Of a stretch of 64,000 nucleotides of DNA, positions 3,743 to 15,319 are shown one piece after another. Position numbers and translations under genes: made by a program. Position 1 is the first letter of the stretch. Every line of letters begins with the position of its first letter. The notes below the pieces were generated by a model that worked only from the letters and a program-made list of their open reading frames with translations, was not told the DNA's origin and ran no database searches. Source of the stretch: Leptospiraceae bacterium (GTDB lineage: Bacteria; Spirochaetota; Leptospiria; Leptospirales; Leptospiraceae); the NCBI GenBank assembly GCA_022402465.1, contig JAKRSH010000033.1, positions 62,001-126,000 on the forward strand, in the 5' to 3' direction.

Positions 3743-5254
3743 ATGAAACATATAGACAAATACCGACTTTTTCTTGGCCTTTTAATTTCACTGCCCTTGT
3801 TATATATTGCAGTTCTTTATTTTTCACGCCAAGAAAAAAGAACAGAGCCCAATTTTCCACCAAGCTACCTTACATCTTCAGAATATTGTAAAGATAAAAA
3901 GTCCAAACGATTGGAATTTGCAAGCAGAGATATCCAAGAGTTACAAATTGCACTCAATTCATTGCAAGAATGTACAACAATATTCTTGAAGCCTGGAGTT
4001 TTTGAATTCAACAACTCCTTATCAATCGCAAGTGTAAATGGAATAAGCTTGCAAGGCTCTGGCAAAAATGCTACAACCATACGTTTTGTGAATGCAGGCA
4101 ATGGGAACGGTGTGGATGTTGAGGCATCGAATTCATTTACCATACGAGACTTAAAAATTTTGGATAGCCCCAAGAATGGATTGGAAATTCGATTATCAGA
4201 AAACATCTTGATAGATAATATCATTGTTACATGGTCCAATACATCTGGCGAGGCTATGTCCAAAAATGGAGCCTATGGAGTGTATCCTGTTAATGTTGTT
4301 AATGTGCTTCTCCAAAATACTGAAACCTATTATGCTTCCGATGCGGGTCTCTATGTTGGTCAATGCATCAATGCTCTTGTTAGAAACAACCTTGCAGAAT
4401 ACAATGTGATGGGTTTGGAAATTGAGAACACTGTGAACGCGGATGTCTATAACAATATTGTTCGCAATAATACAGGGGGATTTTTAGCTTATGATTTAAA
4501 TAAAAATACTATAGTCTCACGTAATATTAAAGTACATAACAACACGATTATTAATAATAATTTTCCTAACTTCAGTAGTGCTGGTATAGTAAAGACTGTT
4601 CCTTCTGGAACAGGCATTATTCTAACCTCTCTTAGAGAGGCGGAAATATTTAACAACAAGATAGGCGGCAATCATTCGGTTGATATTGCTATTATGAATG
4701 GCCTTGTTTCTGAGACTCCAGATTTTTCGGCATGGCCTATGAACAATTGGCGTGTTCACAATATTTATATTCATGACAATGAATTTTTGGGAGGTTCTGG
4801 TACTGCAGTTGATAATGGAAACACAGATGAGAAGAATCGTCCCTTAGGAGTTTTGGTTGACATGGTGCATGAGGCTTATAATAAATACTTAGAATCACAG
4901 AACAAGCCTAAAGAAAATCTTGCCAATATACTCTATGATGGAGTGGATACAGGATTTACAATCTTAATGATGACAACTTGGTTTGGTAACAATCCTGGCA
5001 ACCATAACGAAATCTGTATTAAGAATAATACGAAAGGAAAAATTGTTCCCACAGTTTTAGATTTAAATTTGCCTGCTCTACTTGCCAATGCGGAAGAACC
5101 CACAAAAGAAAGTATAGCTTCAGCAATTGAGTCAGGCGATACTAGAGTTTATTTGCCGAATAGTGAGTCTCCTTATGGTGGTGCTCCAAGCAAGGGCTTT
5201 GATTGTGAAGGATTTGTAGCAACTGGTCTTCCCATTTCCTTTCCAGAGAAATAA
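3743..5254 (+). CDS. Parallel beta-helix repeat protein (TIGR03805-like)
   Basis: After one N-terminal hydrophobic segment (about residues 9-27), the 503-residue protein begins with a segment like that of pectate-lyase-fold proteins (IFLKPGVFEFNNSLSI, then GSGKNATTIRF). It continues with many short repeats such as VYNNIVRNNTGG, KVHNNTIINNN and YIHDNEFLG, which build a right-handed beta helix of the NosD/CASH type. It is probably exported or anchored and exposed to the periplasm. The next gene, 22 bases downstream, encodes the c-type cytochrome family (TIGR03806) that regularly neighbours TIGR03805 proteins, which strengthens the assignment. Biochemical function of the pair is unknown; periplasmic binding or cleavage of a glycan is a guess from the fold. 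Confidence 0.8.
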   Translation: MKHIDKYRLFLGLLISLPLLYIAVLYFSRQEKRTEPNFPPSYLTSSEYCKDKKSKRLEFASRDIQELQIALNSLQECTTIFLKPGVFEFNNSLSIASVNGISLQGSGKNATTIRFVNAGNGNGVDVEASNSFTIRDLKILDSPKNGLEIRLSENILIDNIIVTWSNTSGEAMSKNGAYGVYPVNVVNVLLQNTETYYASDAGLYVGQCINALVRNNLAEYNVMGLEIENTVNADVYNNIVRNNTGGFLAYDLNKNTIVSRNIKVHNNTIINNNFPNFSSAGIVKTVPSGTGIILTSLREAEIFNNKIGGNHSVDIAIMNGLVSETPDFSAWPMNNWRVHNIYIHDNEFLGGSGTAVDNGNTDEKNRPLGVLVDMVHEAYNKYLESQNKPKENLANILYDGVDTGFTILMMTTWFGNNPGNHNEICIKNNTKGKIVPTVLDLNLPALLANAEEPTKESIASAIESGDTRVYLPNSESPYGGAPSKGFDCEGFVATGLPISFPEK

Positions 5255-5276
5255 TCAATATAGTGAAGTTCTATAA

Positions 5277-6407
5277 ATGATTTATAAAAATAGAAATTGC
5301 ACACTATATCAGGTAAATTTAATTTTAAAGAGTATAATCTTTCTTGGATTAGGAATACTAGTCTGTACAAATTGTAAAGAAAAAGCTCGTCCGAATCAAA
5401 ATCCTCAAGAATTAGCTATTCTAAGTCAGCTTTCTGAATATGATTTATTTGATAAAGATGAGAATGGCAATCTTATTCCTAAACAATTTGGAACAAGCTA
5501 TACCTTAAATACATCTTTATTCTCAGATTATACTCATAAAGATAGAGTTATTTTTCTTCCTAAGAATTCCCAGATTCAATATGAATCGGACAAAGTGTTC
5601 ACTATGCCAATAGGGACTATAATCTCTAAGACATTTTCCATGCCTGCCGATCTGACCAAGCCTACTGAAGATTTACAAAAATTAGAAACTAGGTTACTGA
5701 TCAATCAACCCAAGGGTTGGTTCGCTGTTTCATATACTTGGAACCAGGAAGGAACAGATGCAGAAATTGCCTATGCTGGTAAGAATATACCTATCCAATT
5801 CAAAGACACAGATGGCAAAAAGGTGAACTTTACCTATTCAGTACCTTCGCGAAACCAGTGTACAAGCTGTCACCAATCTTATGAGGGAAGAAGTCAATCT
5901 ATAGTTCCAATAGGTCCCAAGGCAAAGCATTTGAATAAAGAAATTTCTACAATAGATGGCAACATTAAGAATCAACTTTCTATTTGGAAAGAAAAGGGTA
6001 TACTAGCAGGTCTTCCATATTTCGCAGTTCCTAAGTTAGTTGATGCATTTGATAATCATCACAGTGTAGAAGATAGAGCTAGAGCTTACTTAGATATCAA
6101 TTGCAGTCATTGCCACCAAGGGGCTGGAGCAGCTGGAATGAATTCCAAATTGATACTCACTGCAGAAGAAAGCAATCTTTCAGAACTCGGTTTGTGTAAG
6201 ACTCCTGGTTCCGCAGGTAAAGGAGGGGGCGGGCTTAGATATGATATAGTTCCAGGTAATGCCGATGCTTCCATTCTGTACTATAGAATGGCAACTCAGG
6301 ACAGTGGAGCCATGATGCCTCAAATTGGTCGTGCTCTAGTCCACAAAGAAGGTCTTGAGCTAATTCGCAATTGGATCAATTCTATGCCTGCTAAGGAATG
6401 TCCATAG
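5277..6407 (+). CDS. Two-haem c-type cytochrome lipoprotein (TIGR03806/HNE_0200-like)
   Basis: A signal segment ends CTNC, giving a likely lipid Cys33 with the Asn-before-Cys form common in spirochaetes. Two covalent haem motifs are visible: CTSCH at 195-199 and CSHCH at 276-280. The first is preceded by a beta-rich domain (YSVPSRNQ before it), and the second opens a C-terminal cytochrome-like region with GNADASILYYRM and AMMPQIG, where Met346 or Met347 could be an axial ligand. The protein should carry electrons at the periplasmic face. It directly follows the beta-helix gene, its regular partner. The DsbA-like gene after it could help keep the haem cysteines reduced or act on the pair, which is inference. 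Confidence 0.82.
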   Translation: MIYKNRNCTLYQVNLILKSIIFLGLGILVCTNCKEKARPNQNPQELAILSQLSEYDLFDKDENGNLIPKQFGTSYTLNTSLFSDYTHKDRVIFLPKNSQIQYESDKVFTMPIGTIISKTFSMPADLTKPTEDLQKLETRLLINQPKGWFAVSYTWNQEGTDAEIAYAGKNIPIQFKDTDGKKVNFTYSVPSRNQCTSCHQSYEGRSQSIVPIGPKAKHLNKEISTIDGNIKNQLSIWKEKGILAGLPYFAVPKLVDAFDNHHSVEDRARAYLDINCSHCHQGAGAAGMNSKLILTAEESNLSELGLCKTPGSAGKGGGGLRYDIVPGNADASILYYRMATQDSGAMMPQIGRALVHKEGLELIRNWINSMPAKECP

Positions 6408-6436
6408 ATAGATTCTTTTCTATCTCTAAGGCATCA

Positions 6437-7384
6437 ATGAGTTATAAGAAGATTATTTTACTTGGATTTGGAATATTTTTTTTTACAAATGGTTGCAATG
6501 AAACAAAATCAATTGAATTGCCCAGATATTTACCCAGTGAATCTGAAATCAAATTTACATTAAGTGATGAATCCACTTTCAAAAGATTAGAAGCTAAGGC
6601 TAGGTCTAAGGGTTTTGCAAGTGCGAAAGAATGGAAGATATCTGTCATATCCCAAATTACAGAATCAGACATGGATGCTATGGTTCGTTTGGACAAATCG
6701 CAGGGCATAAGTATCTTAAACCAAGATTCAAATATTTTAGAATATACGAATAAACTTAAGAACCGTTTAGCTTGGACTATTCTTTTTCAGGAAGAAAATA
6801 TTTCTCTCATTCAAAAATCACAATTGCCAGAAAAATCTCAAGCTATCTTAAATAAATTTCCAAACCTTCCCATCAAAGGAAATACTCAAGCAAAATTAAT
6901 CATTTTTGAATTTTCAGATTTTACCTGCCCATATTGTAGAAAATCGCACAGAGTCTCGGAAGAAATTTTTATAAAGTACAAAAAAGAAGTTTCTTGGGTT
7001 TTTATTGATTTTCCTTTAACAGACTTTCCCTTTCAAGATTCACCTGCTCATCTTTTGGGAGCATGTATCCATGAGGAAAATCCTAAGCTTTTTTGGGATT
7101 ACTACAAGCGCGTATTTACGATGGATGCTATGAGTTCGGAACAAAATGTATCTAGACTTGCTATTAAGCAATATGGTTTTACAGAAGATTCTTGGAAGGA
7201 CTGTAGAAATGGATCTGGAAAATTTAAAATATCTCTACATGAACTGCATTCCAAGAAGAAATATTTAGAAAGCCTAGGTGTATCAGCAAGGCCAAGCTTT
7301 CTTATAGGAGGACAATTTGTTCAAGGTTACCTCCCATTTCCTAAATTTGAAAAAATTTTAAAAACTCAATTAAATTCACTTTGA
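6437..7384 (+). CDS. DsbA-like thioredoxin-fold lipoprotein
   Basis: From ATG 6437 the protein has a 19-residue lipoprotein signal ending FFTNGC (Cys20), then about 120 residues of helical linker, then a DsbA-type thioredoxin fold. The redox motif CPYC spans about residues 164-167 (FSDFTCPYCRKS), and a cis-proline is in ARPSFLIGG near the C terminus. ATG 6437 with AAGG just upstream is preferred over ATG 6398, which overlaps the previous gene and would lengthen the signal. It should be a membrane-anchored periplasmic thiol-disulfide oxidoreductase. Being in line with the two-haem cytochrome gene suggests a substrate nearby, but that is inference. Confidence 0.82.
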   Translation: MSYKKIILLGFGIFFFTNGCNETKSIELPRYLPSESEIKFTLSDESTFKRLEAKARSKGFASAKEWKISVISQITESDMDAMVRLDKSQGISILNQDSNILEYTNKLKNRLAWTILFQEENISLIQKSQLPEKSQAILNKFPNLPIKGNTQAKLIIFEFSDFTCPYCRKSHRVSEEIFIKYKKEVSWVFIDFPLTDFPFQDSPAHLLGACIHEENPKLFWDYYKRVFTMDAMSSEQNVSRLAIKQYGFTEDSWKDCRNGSGKFKISLHELHSKKKYLESLGVSARPSFLIGGQFVQGYLPFPKFEKILKTQLNSL

Positions 7385-7436
7385 CTCCTTTTTTAAGATT
7401 CTTTAAGATCATACTTTGATAGGGGAAAGATTATAC

Positions 7437-8945
7437 ATGACCATTCAATTTAAGCAATCAATATTGGTTTGCCTTTGTTCATTAATATTAATCATTAATT
7501 GTGGAACGAAAGTTCAGATTTCTATGGTGACATCAACTTCGGCGGCTTCTGGCCAAGCCTTTGATGCTCTGAATGGAAAAATATGGAAGGCAGAAGAGGG
7601 TGCTGAATTTGTTAAGCTACATATTTATGCAGATGAGGTAATTCCGTTATCAAAAGTAGAGGCGATTTCTTGTGATAAGGAATTTAAAGATAGTGTTTTT
7701 GTATTTATCAACTTTGATGAAGTATTTAGATCTTCTGAAGCAAAGAAATCTTCAGCTCTTGTAAGCTATGATCCGCCCGTATCTGCTCGATCTATAACTT
7801 TTAACTTTCAAAAGAATTCTAATATTTGTCTTAAAGCAATCAATCTTTATGATGCATCTGGTAAGAAGTATAATGTTCAAACACCAGAAATCATTGAAGC
7901 TAAGGTGACAGCTTCCGAAACAGGAGCACCCCAGGCTTCCTATGATGTTATGAATCTTTTTGATAGTCGATATGAATATGCTTATGCAACAGACAAGGGT
8001 GCTAAGGATGTTACTATAAATTTAGCCTTTCAAGATGAAGTAGATATTGAATCTGTTAAAATTTGGAATGGATACCAACGATCAGATGTTCATTGTGTAG
8101 ACAATGGAAGGGTTACAAGGTTTCAACTTACGGGTGATAATGGCTATAAGGAAACAATAAGCCTTACAGATGAGCTTGGTTCACAAACTGTAGCTCTTCC
8201 TAAACCATTTTCTGGCAAAAATCTTCAATTTAAAGTAATAGATTATATCAAAGGTAGAAATGCAAAAGGTATAGTAATCAGTGAAATGCGCTTTTTCAAT
8301 GGGAAGCGATGGTTACTTCCCAACTCTTTTCCTACAACAAGAGCCATAGCTGAGTCCAACACCAAGCAATTTAAATCTGCTGGATTAGCTTCAATTTTGA
8401 ATCGTTCCATTGAAGGAGGCGATGAAATCTCAAGTAATAATGTTGTTGAGATGAATGTCCCTCAAGAAGGATCTACACCACAGGCAAGTGATGAATCCAA
8501 TTCAGTTGAGCTTACAGAAGAGGATATTCCAACGAGATCGAATTCAAATTGGATACTTAGATTTAGAACTGATGGAAGTATGTTTTTAGAAGGAACAACG
8601 GGACGATACATAGAATCTGATGTTGGAGAAGTGTATGAGAACCAAAGATTTTATGCACTTGGCAATTACGAAGTGAAAGAAGTTTCTGAAAAGGGAATGG
8701 TAGTTAGGATCTTCGGTTTCTTACGAAATACAAAAACATCAGAAGAAATTATTTATGGAGAAGGTGATTGCAATGGTTGTGGGAGAGACTGCAATAAACT
8801 GGGATCAGGTGCTGATCCTAATTCTATAGAAAAAATATTCCAAGAATATTTAGAAGTTACCAAAAAAGATGGAAAATTTTATATCAAGAATCAAAAGAAA
8901 ACTAAAAATTTAGATTTTGATTCCTTAGAACTTTCTCTTTATTGA
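7437..8945 (+). CDS. Lipoprotein with discoidin/NADase-type glycan-binding-like domains
   Basis: The protein (502 residues from ATG 7437, with AGGGGA upstream) starts with a signal ending LIINC. Two stretches look like F5/8C-type beta sandwiches. The first (about residues 25-150) holds SAASGQAFDALNGKIWK. The second (about 155-290) holds QASYDVMNLFDSRYEYAYAT, VDIESVKIWNGYQRS and ISEMRFFNG, matching the NADase-type glycan-binding pattern seen in many Leptospira lipoproteins. The C-terminal part has LRFRTDGSMFLEG and a Cys-rich GDCNGCGRDC turn. It is probably a surface or periplasmic lipoprotein that binds a carbohydrate. The substrate and any enzyme activity are unknown. Confidence 0.7.
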   Translation: MTIQFKQSILVCLCSLILIINCGTKVQISMVTSTSAASGQAFDALNGKIWKAEEGAEFVKLHIYADEVIPLSKVEAISCDKEFKDSVFVFINFDEVFRSSEAKKSSALVSYDPPVSARSITFNFQKNSNICLKAINLYDASGKKYNVQTPEIIEAKVTASETGAPQASYDVMNLFDSRYEYAYATDKGAKDVTINLAFQDEVDIESVKIWNGYQRSDVHCVDNGRVTRFQLTGDNGYKETISLTDELGSQTVALPKPFSGKNLQFKVIDYIKGRNAKGIVISEMRFFNGKRWLLPNSFPTTRAIAESNTKQFKSAGLASILNRSIEGGDEISSNNVVEMNVPQEGSTPQASDESNSVELTEEDIPTRSNSNWILRFRTDGSMFLEGTTGRYIESDVGEVYENQRFYALGNYEVKEVSEKGMVVRIFGFLRNTKTSEEIIYGEGDCNGCGRDCNKLGSGADPNSIEKIFQEYLEVTKKDGKFYIKNQKKTKNLDFDSLELSLY

Positions 8946-8956
8946 TATAGAATCTT

Positions 8957-9622
8957 ATGCGAATTTTTCAAAGATTCAATTCGAACATAACAATGTATAA
9001 GTTGCAATTGCTTAAGACATTCCTTGTTTTGCTTATTTTTATAAATTGTGGATCAGGTTCAGATAGTCCCCAAGATTTTTCTAAAGAAAATGCTGATGGA
9101 AGTAGAATTTCTAGACCAATTTCATTGACGAAATCAGATAAAGTCAATATCAATCTGGTTTGGGATTTTAAAAATTTACCCATTAGCTTAAAAGTAGAAC
9201 TTTATGAGCCACCATCCCAGAGGCCTTTTTCACTTTGGGAGACAGGCTCAGGCAAAGATGAATCGAAACTTGCCTTCTCCAAACCGATACTAGGCGATGG
9301 TAAATCTATTATCTTGAACCCTGGGACAAAGAAACAATTTGTTCTTGTTATACGAAATCCAAGCGACGAAACGATTCATTTTTTTGCAGCTCCCCACAGA
9401 GCCGAACCAGAGGAAGCTAGTCTGGGATTTAAATTTAAATGTCTATGTATCAATCACGCATTTACCATTCCACCCAAAGAAACTTGGTATAGAATCGTTG
9501 AACTAAAACTCTCAGATGGTTTCTTAGGAGACAGTCTTCTTGTAAGCCATTCTATTATTGGTATACCAAAAGAAAGGGTTAAGGACTTTCAGAAATCTGC
9601 TTCATCAGATCACGAACATTGA
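8957..9622 (+). CDS. Putative lipoprotein of unknown function
   Basis: A signal segment ends LLIFINC, with lipidation at the Cys. The start may be ATG 8957 or ATG 8993; the second gives a more usual 19-residue signal and neither has a strong ribosome site. The mature part of about 190 residues is beta-rich and includes FKCLCINHAFTIPPKETWYR, a block reminiscent of periplasmic cupredoxin-like or copper-chaperone proteins, and a His-rich end SSDHEH. I do not recognise the family firmly. It lies 11 bases after the discoidin-like lipoprotein and probably shares its transcript. Confidence 0.6.
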   Translation: MRIFQRFNSNITMYKLQLLKTFLVLLIFINCGSGSDSPQDFSKENADGSRISRPISLTKSDKVNINLVWDFKNLPISLKVELYEPPSQRPFSLWETGSGKDESKLAFSKPILGDGKSIILNPGTKKQFVLVIRNPSDETIHFFAAPHRAEPEEASLGFKFKCLCINHAFTIPPKETWYRIVELKLSDGFLGDSLLVSHSIIGIPKERVKDFQKSASSDHEH

Positions 9623-13057: not shown

Positions 13058-15319
13058 ATGAGTATGTTTAGTTTTAAACCGATGAGACAGAGTTTTTCTC
13101 TTCTTACTATTTCAATCTTATTTGGATTTTTGCATTGCACAGGAGCAGGTAAAATGCAGATTTCTCCCCCATCGGTTAATACTCAAATGATAGACAAGGG
13201 AGTTTCTTATTCTATTTCGGATGATTACCTCAAGATTCATTCCTCCATTCATGCAACTTCCATACTGGAGTTTCCCTTACATAAAGCATTTATACAAGCA
13301 TCCAAATCGGAATCGGAAGTATCTTATCGAATGGCGGCTTTTCAATTCAAAGATAAGTCTTTGGTGGAATGTAAAGACCAAAGTATAGATAAGATAGAAA
13401 TTTCCAATAAAACATTGGTTATACGAGGAAATCTTTATGGTGAGAATTGTGAGACAACATATATTTTAAGAATTCTTCCTGTTCATTCCCAAGAAGTAAA
13501 CTTTCAATTGGAACTAAATGATCCAAGCTTAAATCGAATTTCTTTAGAATTGCTATCCCAAGAAGAGGAAAGAATCTTTGGTTTGGGAGAACAGTTTACT
13601 CATTTTGATTTTAAAGGCAAGAAGCCATTTCTTTTCACTGAAGAACAAGGAATCGGAAGAGGGGATCAACCAATCACTGCAGGTGCAAATCTAATTGCAG
13701 GAGCAGGTGGAAATGAATATACTACTTATGCTCCTATCCCACATTATATAACATCTCTTAACCGATCTGTGTTTATAGAAAATTCTGGTTATTCCAAGTT
13801 TGATTTTAGTAAAGATGATTCAATTAAGATTCTCTTCTGGGATACAAACTTAGAAGGTAGTTTCAAAGGAACTGCTTGGATAGCATCCAATCCTCTTGAA
13901 CTCATTGAACTCTATACGAAGAAAACAGGTAGAATGCCAGATATGCCAGACTGGGCCTTTGGAACCATCTTGGGCTTGCAAGGTGGAACTAAAAAGGTGA
14001 CGGAAGTTGTAGACAAGGCAATTGCAATGAAGAATCCAATTACCGCACTCTGGATCCAAGATTGGTGTGGTAGAAGAGTTACAAATTTTGGTGATCAGTT
14101 GCAGTGGCGTTGGTATGCTGATGAGAGTCTTTACCCAGATTTTACGAAATTTGTAAAGACCATGAATCAAAAGAATGTAAAGGTCCTAGGATATATCAAT
14201 CCTTTCTTGGCAGACGTAGATCCTAAGAAACCAGGCGGTGATACCTTTACCAATCCAATGCTTGAAGAAGCCAAATCCAAGGGCTACTTAGTGAAAAATT
14301 CCGAAGGCAAACCTTACCTCATTCAGACTGTTGGTTTTCCAGCTTATTTAATTGATATTACAAATCCAGCTGCTGTGAAATGGACCAAAGATATTATCAA
14401 AAAAAATATGATAGCAGTAGGTCTTTCTGGTTGGATGGCAGATTTTGGGGAATGGCTTCCTGTAGATGCTGTCCTTCATTCTGGAGTTTCAGCAAAAGTC
14501 TACCACAATAGATATCCTGTGGATTGGGCTAAGCTCAACCGAGAAGCAATTAAAGAAGCAGGCAAGGAAGGCCAAATTGTATTCTTTACAAGGGCAGGAT
14601 ATTCTTACTCTAATAAATACTCTACCTTATTTTGGTTAGGTGACCAGATGGTAAGTTTTCAGAAAAATGATGGCCTACCTTCAGCTGTTCTGGGCATGAC
14701 AACTTCTGGTATCTCTGGAATTTCATTGAACCACTCTGACATTGGTGGCTACACAACTATTTCCAATCCCTTGAAGAATTACCATAGAAGTAAGGAGCTT
14801 TTACAAAGATGGGCTGAGATGTCCGCCTTTACCCCTGTTTTTCGTACCCATGAAGGAAATCGTCCTCTCAAGAACTGGCAAGTTTATGAATTTGAAAATT
14901 CTGAAAAAGTTAAATCCCAATCTGATTTAGATACGGGTTTGCACTTTGCGAAAATGGGCAGGTTGCATTTTGCTCTAAAGCCTTATATCAAAAACCTAAG
15001 CAAAGAAGCAAGCATCACTGGCTATCCTGTTGTTCGACATCCTTATCTTCATTTTCCAAAAGATCCAATTGTCATGAAATTGAAATACCAATTTATGTTA
15101 GGTGAAGATCTAATGATCTTACCGGTCCTTGAATCAGGAGCAGACGAAGTAAAAGGCTATCTTCCAGAGGGAAGATGGAAGCACACATCCTCAGGTAAGA
15201 TTTATGATGGAAATTCATGGCTTGAAGTAGAAGCAAAAATTGGTGAACCTGCTGCATTTATCCGTATGGGTGGCAAATCTCAAGCAATGTTAGAAAAAGC
15301 ATTGATAGGGACCAAGTAG
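13058..15319 (+). CDS. YihQ-like GH31 alpha-glycosidase lipoprotein
   Basis: A lipoprotein signal ends GFLHC. The catalytic domain follows the sulfoquinovosidase (YihQ) branch of GH31 closely: the nucleophile is Asp462 in GWMADFGEWLP, the acid/base is Asp529 in FWLGDQ, spaced 67 residues apart as in E. coli YihQ, and the HSDIGGY block ends at Tyr565. Of the residues that hold the sulfonate in YihQ, Trp304 and Tyr508 match Trp350 and Tyr565, but Arg301 aligns with Gln347 (FGDQLQWRW). The enzyme therefore probably cleaves an alpha-glycoside outside the cytoplasm, perhaps not sulfoquinovose. There are no neighbouring sulfoquinovose genes. The alignment to YihQ is from memory. Confidence 0.88.
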   Translation: MSMFSFKPMRQSFSLLTISILFGFLHCTGAGKMQISPPSVNTQMIDKGVSYSISDDYLKIHSSIHATSILEFPLHKAFIQASKSESEVSYRMAAFQFKDKSLVECKDQSIDKIEISNKTLVIRGNLYGENCETTYILRILPVHSQEVNFQLELNDPSLNRISLELLSQEEERIFGLGEQFTHFDFKGKKPFLFTEEQGIGRGDQPITAGANLIAGAGGNEYTTYAPIPHYITSLNRSVFIENSGYSKFDFSKDDSIKILFWDTNLEGSFKGTAWIASNPLELIELYTKKTGRMPDMPDWAFGTILGLQGGTKKVTEVVDKAIAMKNPITALWIQDWCGRRVTNFGDQLQWRWYADESLYPDFTKFVKTMNQKNVKVLGYINPFLADVDPKKPGGDTFTNPMLEEAKSKGYLVKNSEGKPYLIQTVGFPAYLIDITNPAAVKWTKDIIKKNMIAVGLSGWMADFGEWLPVDAVLHSGVSAKVYHNRYPVDWAKLNREAIKEAGKEGQIVFFTRAGYSYSNKYSTLFWLGDQMVSFQKNDGLPSAVLGMTTSGISGISLNHSDIGGYTTISNPLKNYHRSKELLQRWAEMSAFTPVFRTHEGNRPLKNWQVYEFENSEKVKSQSDLDTGLHFAKMGRLHFALKPYIKNLSKEASITGYPVVRHPYLHFPKDPIVMKLKYQFMLGEDLMILPVLESGADEVKGYLPEGRWKHTSSGKIYDGNSWLEVEAKIGEPAAFIRMGGKSQAMLEKALIGTK

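Follow-up and report, generated by a model that had tools for sequence, protein, structure and literature searches.

A predicted exported GH31 enzyme of the sulfoquinovosidase group with glutamine at the Arg301 position in a Leptospiraceae bacterium

We analyzed a stretch of 64,000 nucleotides from a Leptospiraceae bacterium (assembly GCA_022402465.1, contig JAKRSH010000033.1, positions 62,001 to 126,000; hereafter the window) with regard to one gene, which encodes a family 31 glycoside hydrolase (GH31) resembling the Escherichia coli sulfoquinovosidase (SQase) YihQ. The open reading frame (ORF) at 13058-15319 on the plus strand is uninterrupted over 753 codons and its product of 753 amino acids (aa) is the sole match to its own sequence in the genome (E≤0.001). 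Pfam matches comprise the GH31 barrel (PF01055, 148 bits) and the C-terminal domain (PF21365, 63.8 bits), and the N-terminal domain PF13802 scores narrowly below its cut-off (26.4, cut-off 27). The YihQ model NF007746 (PRK10426) of NCBIfam gives 884.7 bits at a cut-off of 553. The closest relatives by sequence in the PDB are SQases, namely 8r56 (485.5 bits), 5aed (YihQ, 471.9 bits), 6pnr (454.4 bits) and 5ohy/5ohs (423/421 bits), and the first GH31 enzyme in this ranking that is not an SQase is YicI with 128 bits. The features of the gene are as follows.

13058..15319, plus strand: GH31 enzyme of the YihQ/sulfoquinovosidase group, 753 aa, Gln-type, predicted to be exported (domains, NF007746, alignment, tree, structure)
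13058..13138, plus strand: predicted signal peptide with lipobox-like FLHC, Cys27 at 13136-13138 (N-terminus; residues 1-38 without confident fold in the model)
13940..14896, plus strand: GH31 TIM-barrel domain, residues 295-613 (PF01055)
13979..13981, plus strand: Gln308, equivalent to YihQ Gln262 (MAFFT alignment)
14057..14059, plus strand: Gln334, equivalent to YihQ Gln288 (MAFFT alignment)
14096..14098, plus strand: Gln347 (CAG) at the position of YihQ Arg301 (two alignments; codon read)
14105..14107, plus strand: Trp350, equivalent to YihQ Trp304 (MAFFT alignment)
14324..14326, plus strand: Gln423 at the position of YihQ Glu366, where in cytosolic enzymes an acid pairs with Arg301 (column comparison)
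14441..14443, plus strand: Asp462, aligned with YihQ Asp405, the nucleophile (MAFFT alignment)
14642..14644, plus strand: Asp529, aligned with YihQ Asp472, the acid/base (MAFFT alignment)
14750..14752, plus strand: Tyr565, equivalent to YihQ Tyr508 (MAFFT alignment)
15020..15271, plus strand: GH31 C-terminal domain, residues 655-738 (PF21365)

Residue equivalences were taken from a MAFFT alignment with YihQ, whose sequence came from the E. coli K-12 genome. A first reading made from the letters of this DNA (here called the sequence-only reading) had described a catalytic pair spaced as in YihQ, retained equivalents of Gln288, Trp304 and Tyr508, and a Gln in place of Arg301, which contacts the sulfonate, and the alignment bears out all of these residue assignments. 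Asp462 and Asp529 stand opposite Asp405 and Asp472 with the same spacing of 67 residues, and Gln334, Trp350 and Tyr565 are found at the three retained positions, with Gln308 aligned to Gln262 in addition. Gln347 falls opposite Arg301 in a stretch free of gaps and keeps this register in a second, larger alignment, so that a proper alignment places Gln, and not Arg, at the sulfonate site in both cases. Trp304, Tyr508, Gln262 and Gln288 are taken here to be sulfonate-site residues. All four solved SQases that we aligned (5aed, 8r56, 6pnr and 5ohy, leaving aside the YihQ mutant 5aee) have Arg at position 301, and measured by this residue the window's enzyme falls outside them. Position 300 is Asp (Asp346) where YihQ has Lys, and position 305 is Arg where YihQ has Asn; the combination of Asp-Gln with Arg305 occurs in nine rows of the alignment, namely the window's enzyme, those of seven close relatives and an f21 row.

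Compared with the solved enzymes YihQ (5aed/5oht) and those of A. tumefaciens (5ohs), B. megaterium (8r56) and E. rectale (SftG, 6pnr), the window's enzyme shares the fold, the Asp pair and its spacing, the Trp304 and Tyr508 equivalents and the match to NF007746. At the Gln262 and Gln288 positions it agrees with YihQ, whereas 5ohy has Lys and Glu there. It differs from the solved SQases in Gln347 for Arg301, in Gln423 for the acid at position 366, in an export-type N-terminus with a lipobox-like Cys and in having no adjacent operon for sulfoquinovose (SQ). An AlphaFold2 model built from 36 rows (mean predicted local distance difference test score 89.7) superimposes on nine SQase entries with Z-scores of 54.6-57.1 at 1.6-1.8 Å over ~660 residues, and the first GH31 structure that is not an SQase, a transglucosylase, follows with a Z-score of 40.9; by this model comparison the overall fold is nearer to SQases than to other GH31 enzymes. 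That the protein is a decayed or non-catalytic GH31 relative is highly improbable, as the single substitution is the one thing found in favor of it, and the open frame, the intact catalytic pair and signature, the confident fold and the occurrence of a relative in 29 of 48 genomes of the class speak against it.

For the wider comparison, relatives were gathered from genome scans, plasmids and E. coli K-12, and sequences shorter than 450 aa were excluded from alignments and trees. The rows of the tree (104 in total) were selected by Trp304, with five outgroup rows added, and counts of Trp304 within its clades are therefore partly a product of selection; in an alignment made without this selection, every one of the rows L002-L061 that has letters at position 304 has Trp. 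Among the 99 aligned Trp304 rows, position 301 is Gln in 58, Arg in 36, Ile in 3, Leu in 1 and Pro in 1. Gln is found in exported and cytosolic enzymes alike, and even a single spirochaete genus (g34) contains both residues, Gln in L123 and Arg in L028, L029, L126 and L129. A careful tree was calculated from 56 rows hand-picked from the 104 (absent are L160, L162, L163, L164, L165, L190 and L078), with the sulfonate-site columns omitted from its alignment. It separates 52 rows of the SQase group from four outgroup rows (support 100/99) and divides the former into a clade of 26 exported rows (100/100) and its sister, a clade of 26 cytosolic rows (100/99). The window's enzyme thus belongs beside the cytosolic SQases and not among them, and by sequence it would be an SQase-group enzyme of the Gln type that is exported.

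YihQ and the SQases from proteobacterial plasmids belong to an Arg clade (11 rows, 100/99) that branches from within Gln lineages. By parsimony a Gln root requires 5 changes and an Arg root 7, a topology with all Gln rows forced into one clade is rejected (approximately unbiased test, p=8.7e-5), and a quick tree of more rows shows nine changes between Gln and Arg. Since the Gln root is cheaper and the Arg clade is nested, we read Gln as the older state, which has changed repeatedly, and not as a replacement of Arg. Gln is probably ancestral at position 301, on a margin of two steps in a tree of hand-picked rows that is rooted on four distant outgroup rows. The cytosolic rows L160, L162, L163 and L164 are devoid of Tyr508 and may not be SQases. 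A highly divergent GH31 enzyme with Pro-Phe-Asp at the sulfonate stretch is encoded on plasmid p98 of Entomospira culicis (L190:5004-7007).

The N-terminus of the window's enzyme is hydrophobic and leads to Cys27 within FLHC. His directly before the lipobox Cys is unusual, but the corresponding residue is also Cys in close relatives (YLHC, YLQC, LVYC). Of the proposal that the enzyme is a lipoprotein, the hydrophobic N-terminus and the conserved Cys have stood, and lipidation at Cys27 is itself a prediction. N-termini and sites were tabulated for 48 of the 52 exported rows (minus L013, L019, L023 and L078) and for 37 of the 42 cytosolic Gln/Arg rows (minus L153, L160, L162, L163 and L164). A hydrophobic N-terminus was found in 43 of these 48 exported rows, 30 of them with a Cys after it, against one of the 37 cytosolic rows, L123, whose start is doubtful. 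Five exported rows have no such N-terminus; L022 and L155 are truncated and L034 and L047 have a badly chosen start. An exported branch, as proposed in the sequence-only reading, is therefore recovered as a single clade, yet it cannot be defined by Gln: position 301 is Gln in 42 and Arg in 10 of its 52 rows, and the notion that Gln marks the branch is ruled out by the tree, by the rejected monophyly of Gln rows and by this mixture.

The other pocket positions are more uniform in the exported rows. Gln262 and Gln288 are present in 52 of 52, Trp304 likewise in 52 of 52, though tree rows had been chosen by this residue, and position 508 is Tyr in 48, Phe in 3 and a gap in 1. In 49 more distant rows Trp304 occurs in 5, and position 508 is Tyr in 21 and Phe in 27. 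The rows L062-L110, many of them from Myxococcota or Deltaproteobacteria, make up a wide set of GH31 relatives with many signal-like N-termini, mostly without Trp304.

Two luciferase-like monooxygenases are encoded in the window's genome, and one of them lies in a probable cluster of the sulfoquinovose monooxygenase (sulfo-SMO) pathway with an adjoining symporter.

L244:4634-8576 (G000, contig C35, about 42-46 kb): smoB-like, smoC-like and sodium/solute symporter genes (PDB sequence matches, gene order)

The SmoC-like protein (L244:5581-6795) matches 7oh2 with 448 bits and 7olf with 441.5 bits, followed by the alkanesulfonate monooxygenase 7jv3 with 199 bits, and the SmoB-like aldo/keto reductase (L244:4634-5581) matches 7bby/7bbz with 271 bits, the next entry scoring 221 bits. 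Their genes overlap by one base, and the symporter gene lies 44 bases from the smoC-like gene on the side opposite to the smoB-like one. The cluster is on a different contig than the GH31 gene, and the only PF01613 flavin reductase gene of the genome is likewise on another contig than the smoC-like gene. Among 392 Spirochaetota genomes, a SmoC-like protein (E≤1e-60) is encoded in seven, all of which belong to the order of the window's genome, with an adjacent SmoB-like gene in 7/7, an adjacent symporter in 5/7 (one of the remaining genomes has a contig that starts at the smoC-like gene) and an exported GH31 enzyme in 6/7. In genome G023 the GH31 and smoC-like genes are 10.2 kb apart. The known sulfo-SMO pathway of A. 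tumefaciens and Novosphingobium (SmoA, SmoB, SmoC) likewise includes the SmoC and SmoB enzymes whose counterparts are adjacent here; unlike there, the window's genome has a symporter beside the smoC-like gene, where the Agrobacterium cluster has an ATP-binding cassette (ABC) importer, and its GH31 enzyme is of the exported type and encoded elsewhere. Co-localized SmoB and SmoC are the criterion for a sulfo-SMO pathway in PMC13372026, which reports such clusters in Spirochaetota generally, and by this rule the window's genome would count as positive.

Gene neighborhoods of the relatives bear on the meaning of Gln347. At least two core SQ genes were found near 7 of 17 cytosolic Gln-type genes (L163 and L164 included) and near 10 of 21 cytosolic Arg-type genes (L162 included; Fisher p=0.75); the marker set was composed without sulfo-Entner-Doudoroff (sulfo-ED) and sulfo-SMO genes, so that the Arg counts are probably low. 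The Gln-type gene of L146 stands in a set resembling the sulfo-transketolase (sulfo-TK) pathway, with an SftI-like isomerase, a split transketolase, an RpiB-like isomerase, an Fe-alcohol dehydrogenase, a TauE exporter and DUF4867. The sole NCBIfam match of its isomerase is SftI, with 206.7 bits below the cut-off of 700. This gene set agrees with the sulfo-TK descriptions in PMC9594981 and PMC12890257, the latter naming Spirochaetes among the carriers. L151, also Gln-type, combines an SftI-like isomerase and DUF4867 with a transaldolase-family protein and a hydroxyisobutyrate dehydrogenase-family protein (best match HIBADH, 196.8 bits; sulfolactaldehyde reductase model 149.5 bits, below its cut-off). 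These and further cytosolic Gln-type enzymes of Spirochaetota (L156, L159 gene 12, and L134, which is the enzyme of L196) have Gln301, Gln262, Gln288, Trp304 and Tyr508 as in the window, but are devoid of a signal peptide and lie inside SQ-degradation clusters. In L159 (3171-15093) one Arg-type and one Gln-type GH31 gene flank a single sulfo-TK-like cluster in one spirochaete. Since Gln recurs in further probable SQases encoded within SQ clusters, Arg301 appears, on the basis of gene context, to be a trait of the solved SQases rather than of the whole group, and as far as context can stand for activity it is unlikely that Gln means no SQ.

Around the window's gene itself we found a cyclase, a FecR-domain protein, a methyl-accepting chemotaxis protein and SCO1/SenC. 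The idea that a neighboring operon would reveal the substrate was dropped, as core SQ genes of the above marker set were found beside none of 45 exported members, the window included (0/37 Gln, 0/8 Arg). An apparent match in the outgroup neighborhoods (1/37) was traced to the gene of L054 itself, of which it is the second fragment. Promoter and terminator scans gave nothing exceeding shuffled sequences. A rhodanese-domain protein adjoins the exported GH31 enzyme at five loci within the window's family, though not in the window (L167:10396-11256 and L184:10476-11357, both PF00581, with relatives in L216, L185 and L032). In two Bacteriovoracales, a GH1 gene (PF00232) for a protein with a signal-like N-terminus runs into the start of an exported Arg-type GH31 gene (L040:6683-8044, L059:6356-7777), possibly a glycolipid-processing pair. 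Elsewhere in the window, at 3743-9622, a run of five genes encodes a right-handed beta-helix protein, a cytochrome-like protein (judged by eye), a DsbA-like thioredoxin, a protein with an NADase-translocation domain and an unknown protein, several of the products being lipoprotein-like by eye.

What the analysis shows is the sequence and where it falls within the SQase group, the retention of the signature, a history in which Gln and Arg are mixed, and smoC-like and smoB-like genes with a symporter in the genome; activity on SQ, location in the cell, transport and the physiological connection are inferred. With a probability of roughly two in three, the gene product is a retaining alpha-sulfoquinovosidase with a Gln-type pocket that is exported and probably anchored by a lipid, the freed SQ being imported and then desulfonated by SmoC-like and SmoB-like enzymes. 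The enzyme would use Asp462 and Asp529 to cut SQ from SQ-glycerol or from the sulfolipid sulfoquinovosyl diacylglycerol (SQDG) outside the cytoplasm, with the sulfonate held by Gln347, Trp350 and Tyr565 together with Gln308 and Gln334, in a pocket that is apparently older than the Arg pocket of YihQ. Import of the released SQ would most likely proceed through the sodium/solute symporter whose gene adjoins the smoC-like one. Its conversion to glucose and sulfite would then fall to the monooxygenase (SmoC-like) and the reductase (SmoB-like), as in the known pathway.

Several observations weigh against this reading. The assignment relies on 7oh2/7olf and 7bby/7bbz being, as we assume, SmoC and SmoB of Sharma et al. 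2022, and no NCBIfam model scored above cut-off against either protein. Within the class, 23 of 29 GH31-bearing genomes have no SmoC-like gene, G004 (75% complete) has the SmoC-like gene without GH31, and the association of the two is not significant (Fisher p=0.22). Neither an SftI-like isomerase (51 of 392 phylum genomes as control, 20 of them strong) nor an AGE-family isomerase (2 of 14 known genomes as control) was found in any of the 48 class genomes. The complete lack of core SQ genes beside exported members belongs here as well, and Asp346 in place of YihQ Lys300 might make the binding of an anion weaker, should its side chain point into the pocket. The 23 carriers without a SmoC-like gene possibly use another SQ pathway or the lipid part.

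Some of the same points would suit the view, put forward in the sequence-only reading, that Gln347 abolishes sulfonate binding and that the substrate of the exported branch is a plain alpha-glucoside or one with a different 6-substituent. The empty neighborhoods, the 23 genomes without a SmoC-like gene, Asp346 and the Arg of the four solved SQases can all be cited for it. We nevertheless consider it unlikely, in view of Gln-type enzymes within sulfo-TK-like and transaldolase SQ clusters, the invariance of Gln262 and Gln288 in the exported rows as against the loosened signature of the 49 distant ones, Arg members inside the exported branch itself, and smoC-like and smoB-like genes in the window's own genome. 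The proposal that Gln marks another substrate was thus not borne out, and Gln347 is most likely no sign of a different substrate.

A further alternative is that the enzyme acts outside the cell on glycolipids of algae or plants, removing SQ or some other head group, and that the nutrient is the lipid part rather than the sugar. An exported, probably lipid-anchored enzyme would fit this, as would the fact that Leptospira lives on fatty acids, that most carriers in the class are without the tested SQ pathways, and that a signal-like GH1 lies directly upstream of the exported GH31 in the two Bacteriovoracales. In the window's genome, however, the GH1 has no signal peptide, and the presence of smoC-like and smoB-like genes implies that SQ itself is probably used there, which leaves this alternative improbable, even more so than the one before. 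An exported GH1/GH31 pair as a general glycolipid system was dropped, as the arrangement was seen in the two Bacteriovoracales loci, GH1-like genes occur in 36/48 class genomes and the GH1 of the window's genome is of the kind just described.

Returning to the Gln-type SQase pocket, position 301 appears to be coupled to position 366 in cytosolic enzymes. In cytosolic rows Arg301 goes together with Asp or Glu at 366 in 25 of 26 cases and Gln301 with a non-acidic residue in 15 of 16 (acid in 1/16); the genus g34 follows the same pattern, with Asp in its Arg rows and Val in its Gln row. The exported clade departs from it, an acid being found at 366 in 2 of 10 Arg rows and 7 of 42 Gln rows. The scan in which this coupling stood among the pairs listed covered 418 column-residue pairs, uncorrected, few independent changes underlie it, and the Fisher test on it ignores the relatedness of the rows. 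As a lead, the acid at 366 may hold Arg301 in place. More tentatively, at somewhat less than even odds, there would be two interchangeable sulfonate pockets, an older one with Gln and a younger one with Arg that is coupled to the acid at 366 in cytosolic enzymes. The Gln pocket would then support SQ use by exported lipoproteins of Leptospirales that feed the symporter and SmoC/SmoB, so that SQ of sulfolipids would be split off extracellularly.

Among the matches listed from the open-licence literature (titles and starts of abstracts), none described a Gln variant of GH31 SQases, and that literature yielded nothing pairing sulfoquinovose with Leptospira; a residue change is described for the unrelated GH188 SQases in PMC11465081. 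Arg301 could be taken as diagnostic of SQases. Should Gln enzymes cleave SQ as well, filters based on Arg301 would miss a large share of the group, the exported branch among it, and estimates of SQ turnover in spirochaetes, Bacteroidota and Bacteriovoracales would come out too low. For Leptospirales, the reading preferred here would, if true, bring together an SQase and an SQ-desulfonating pathway.

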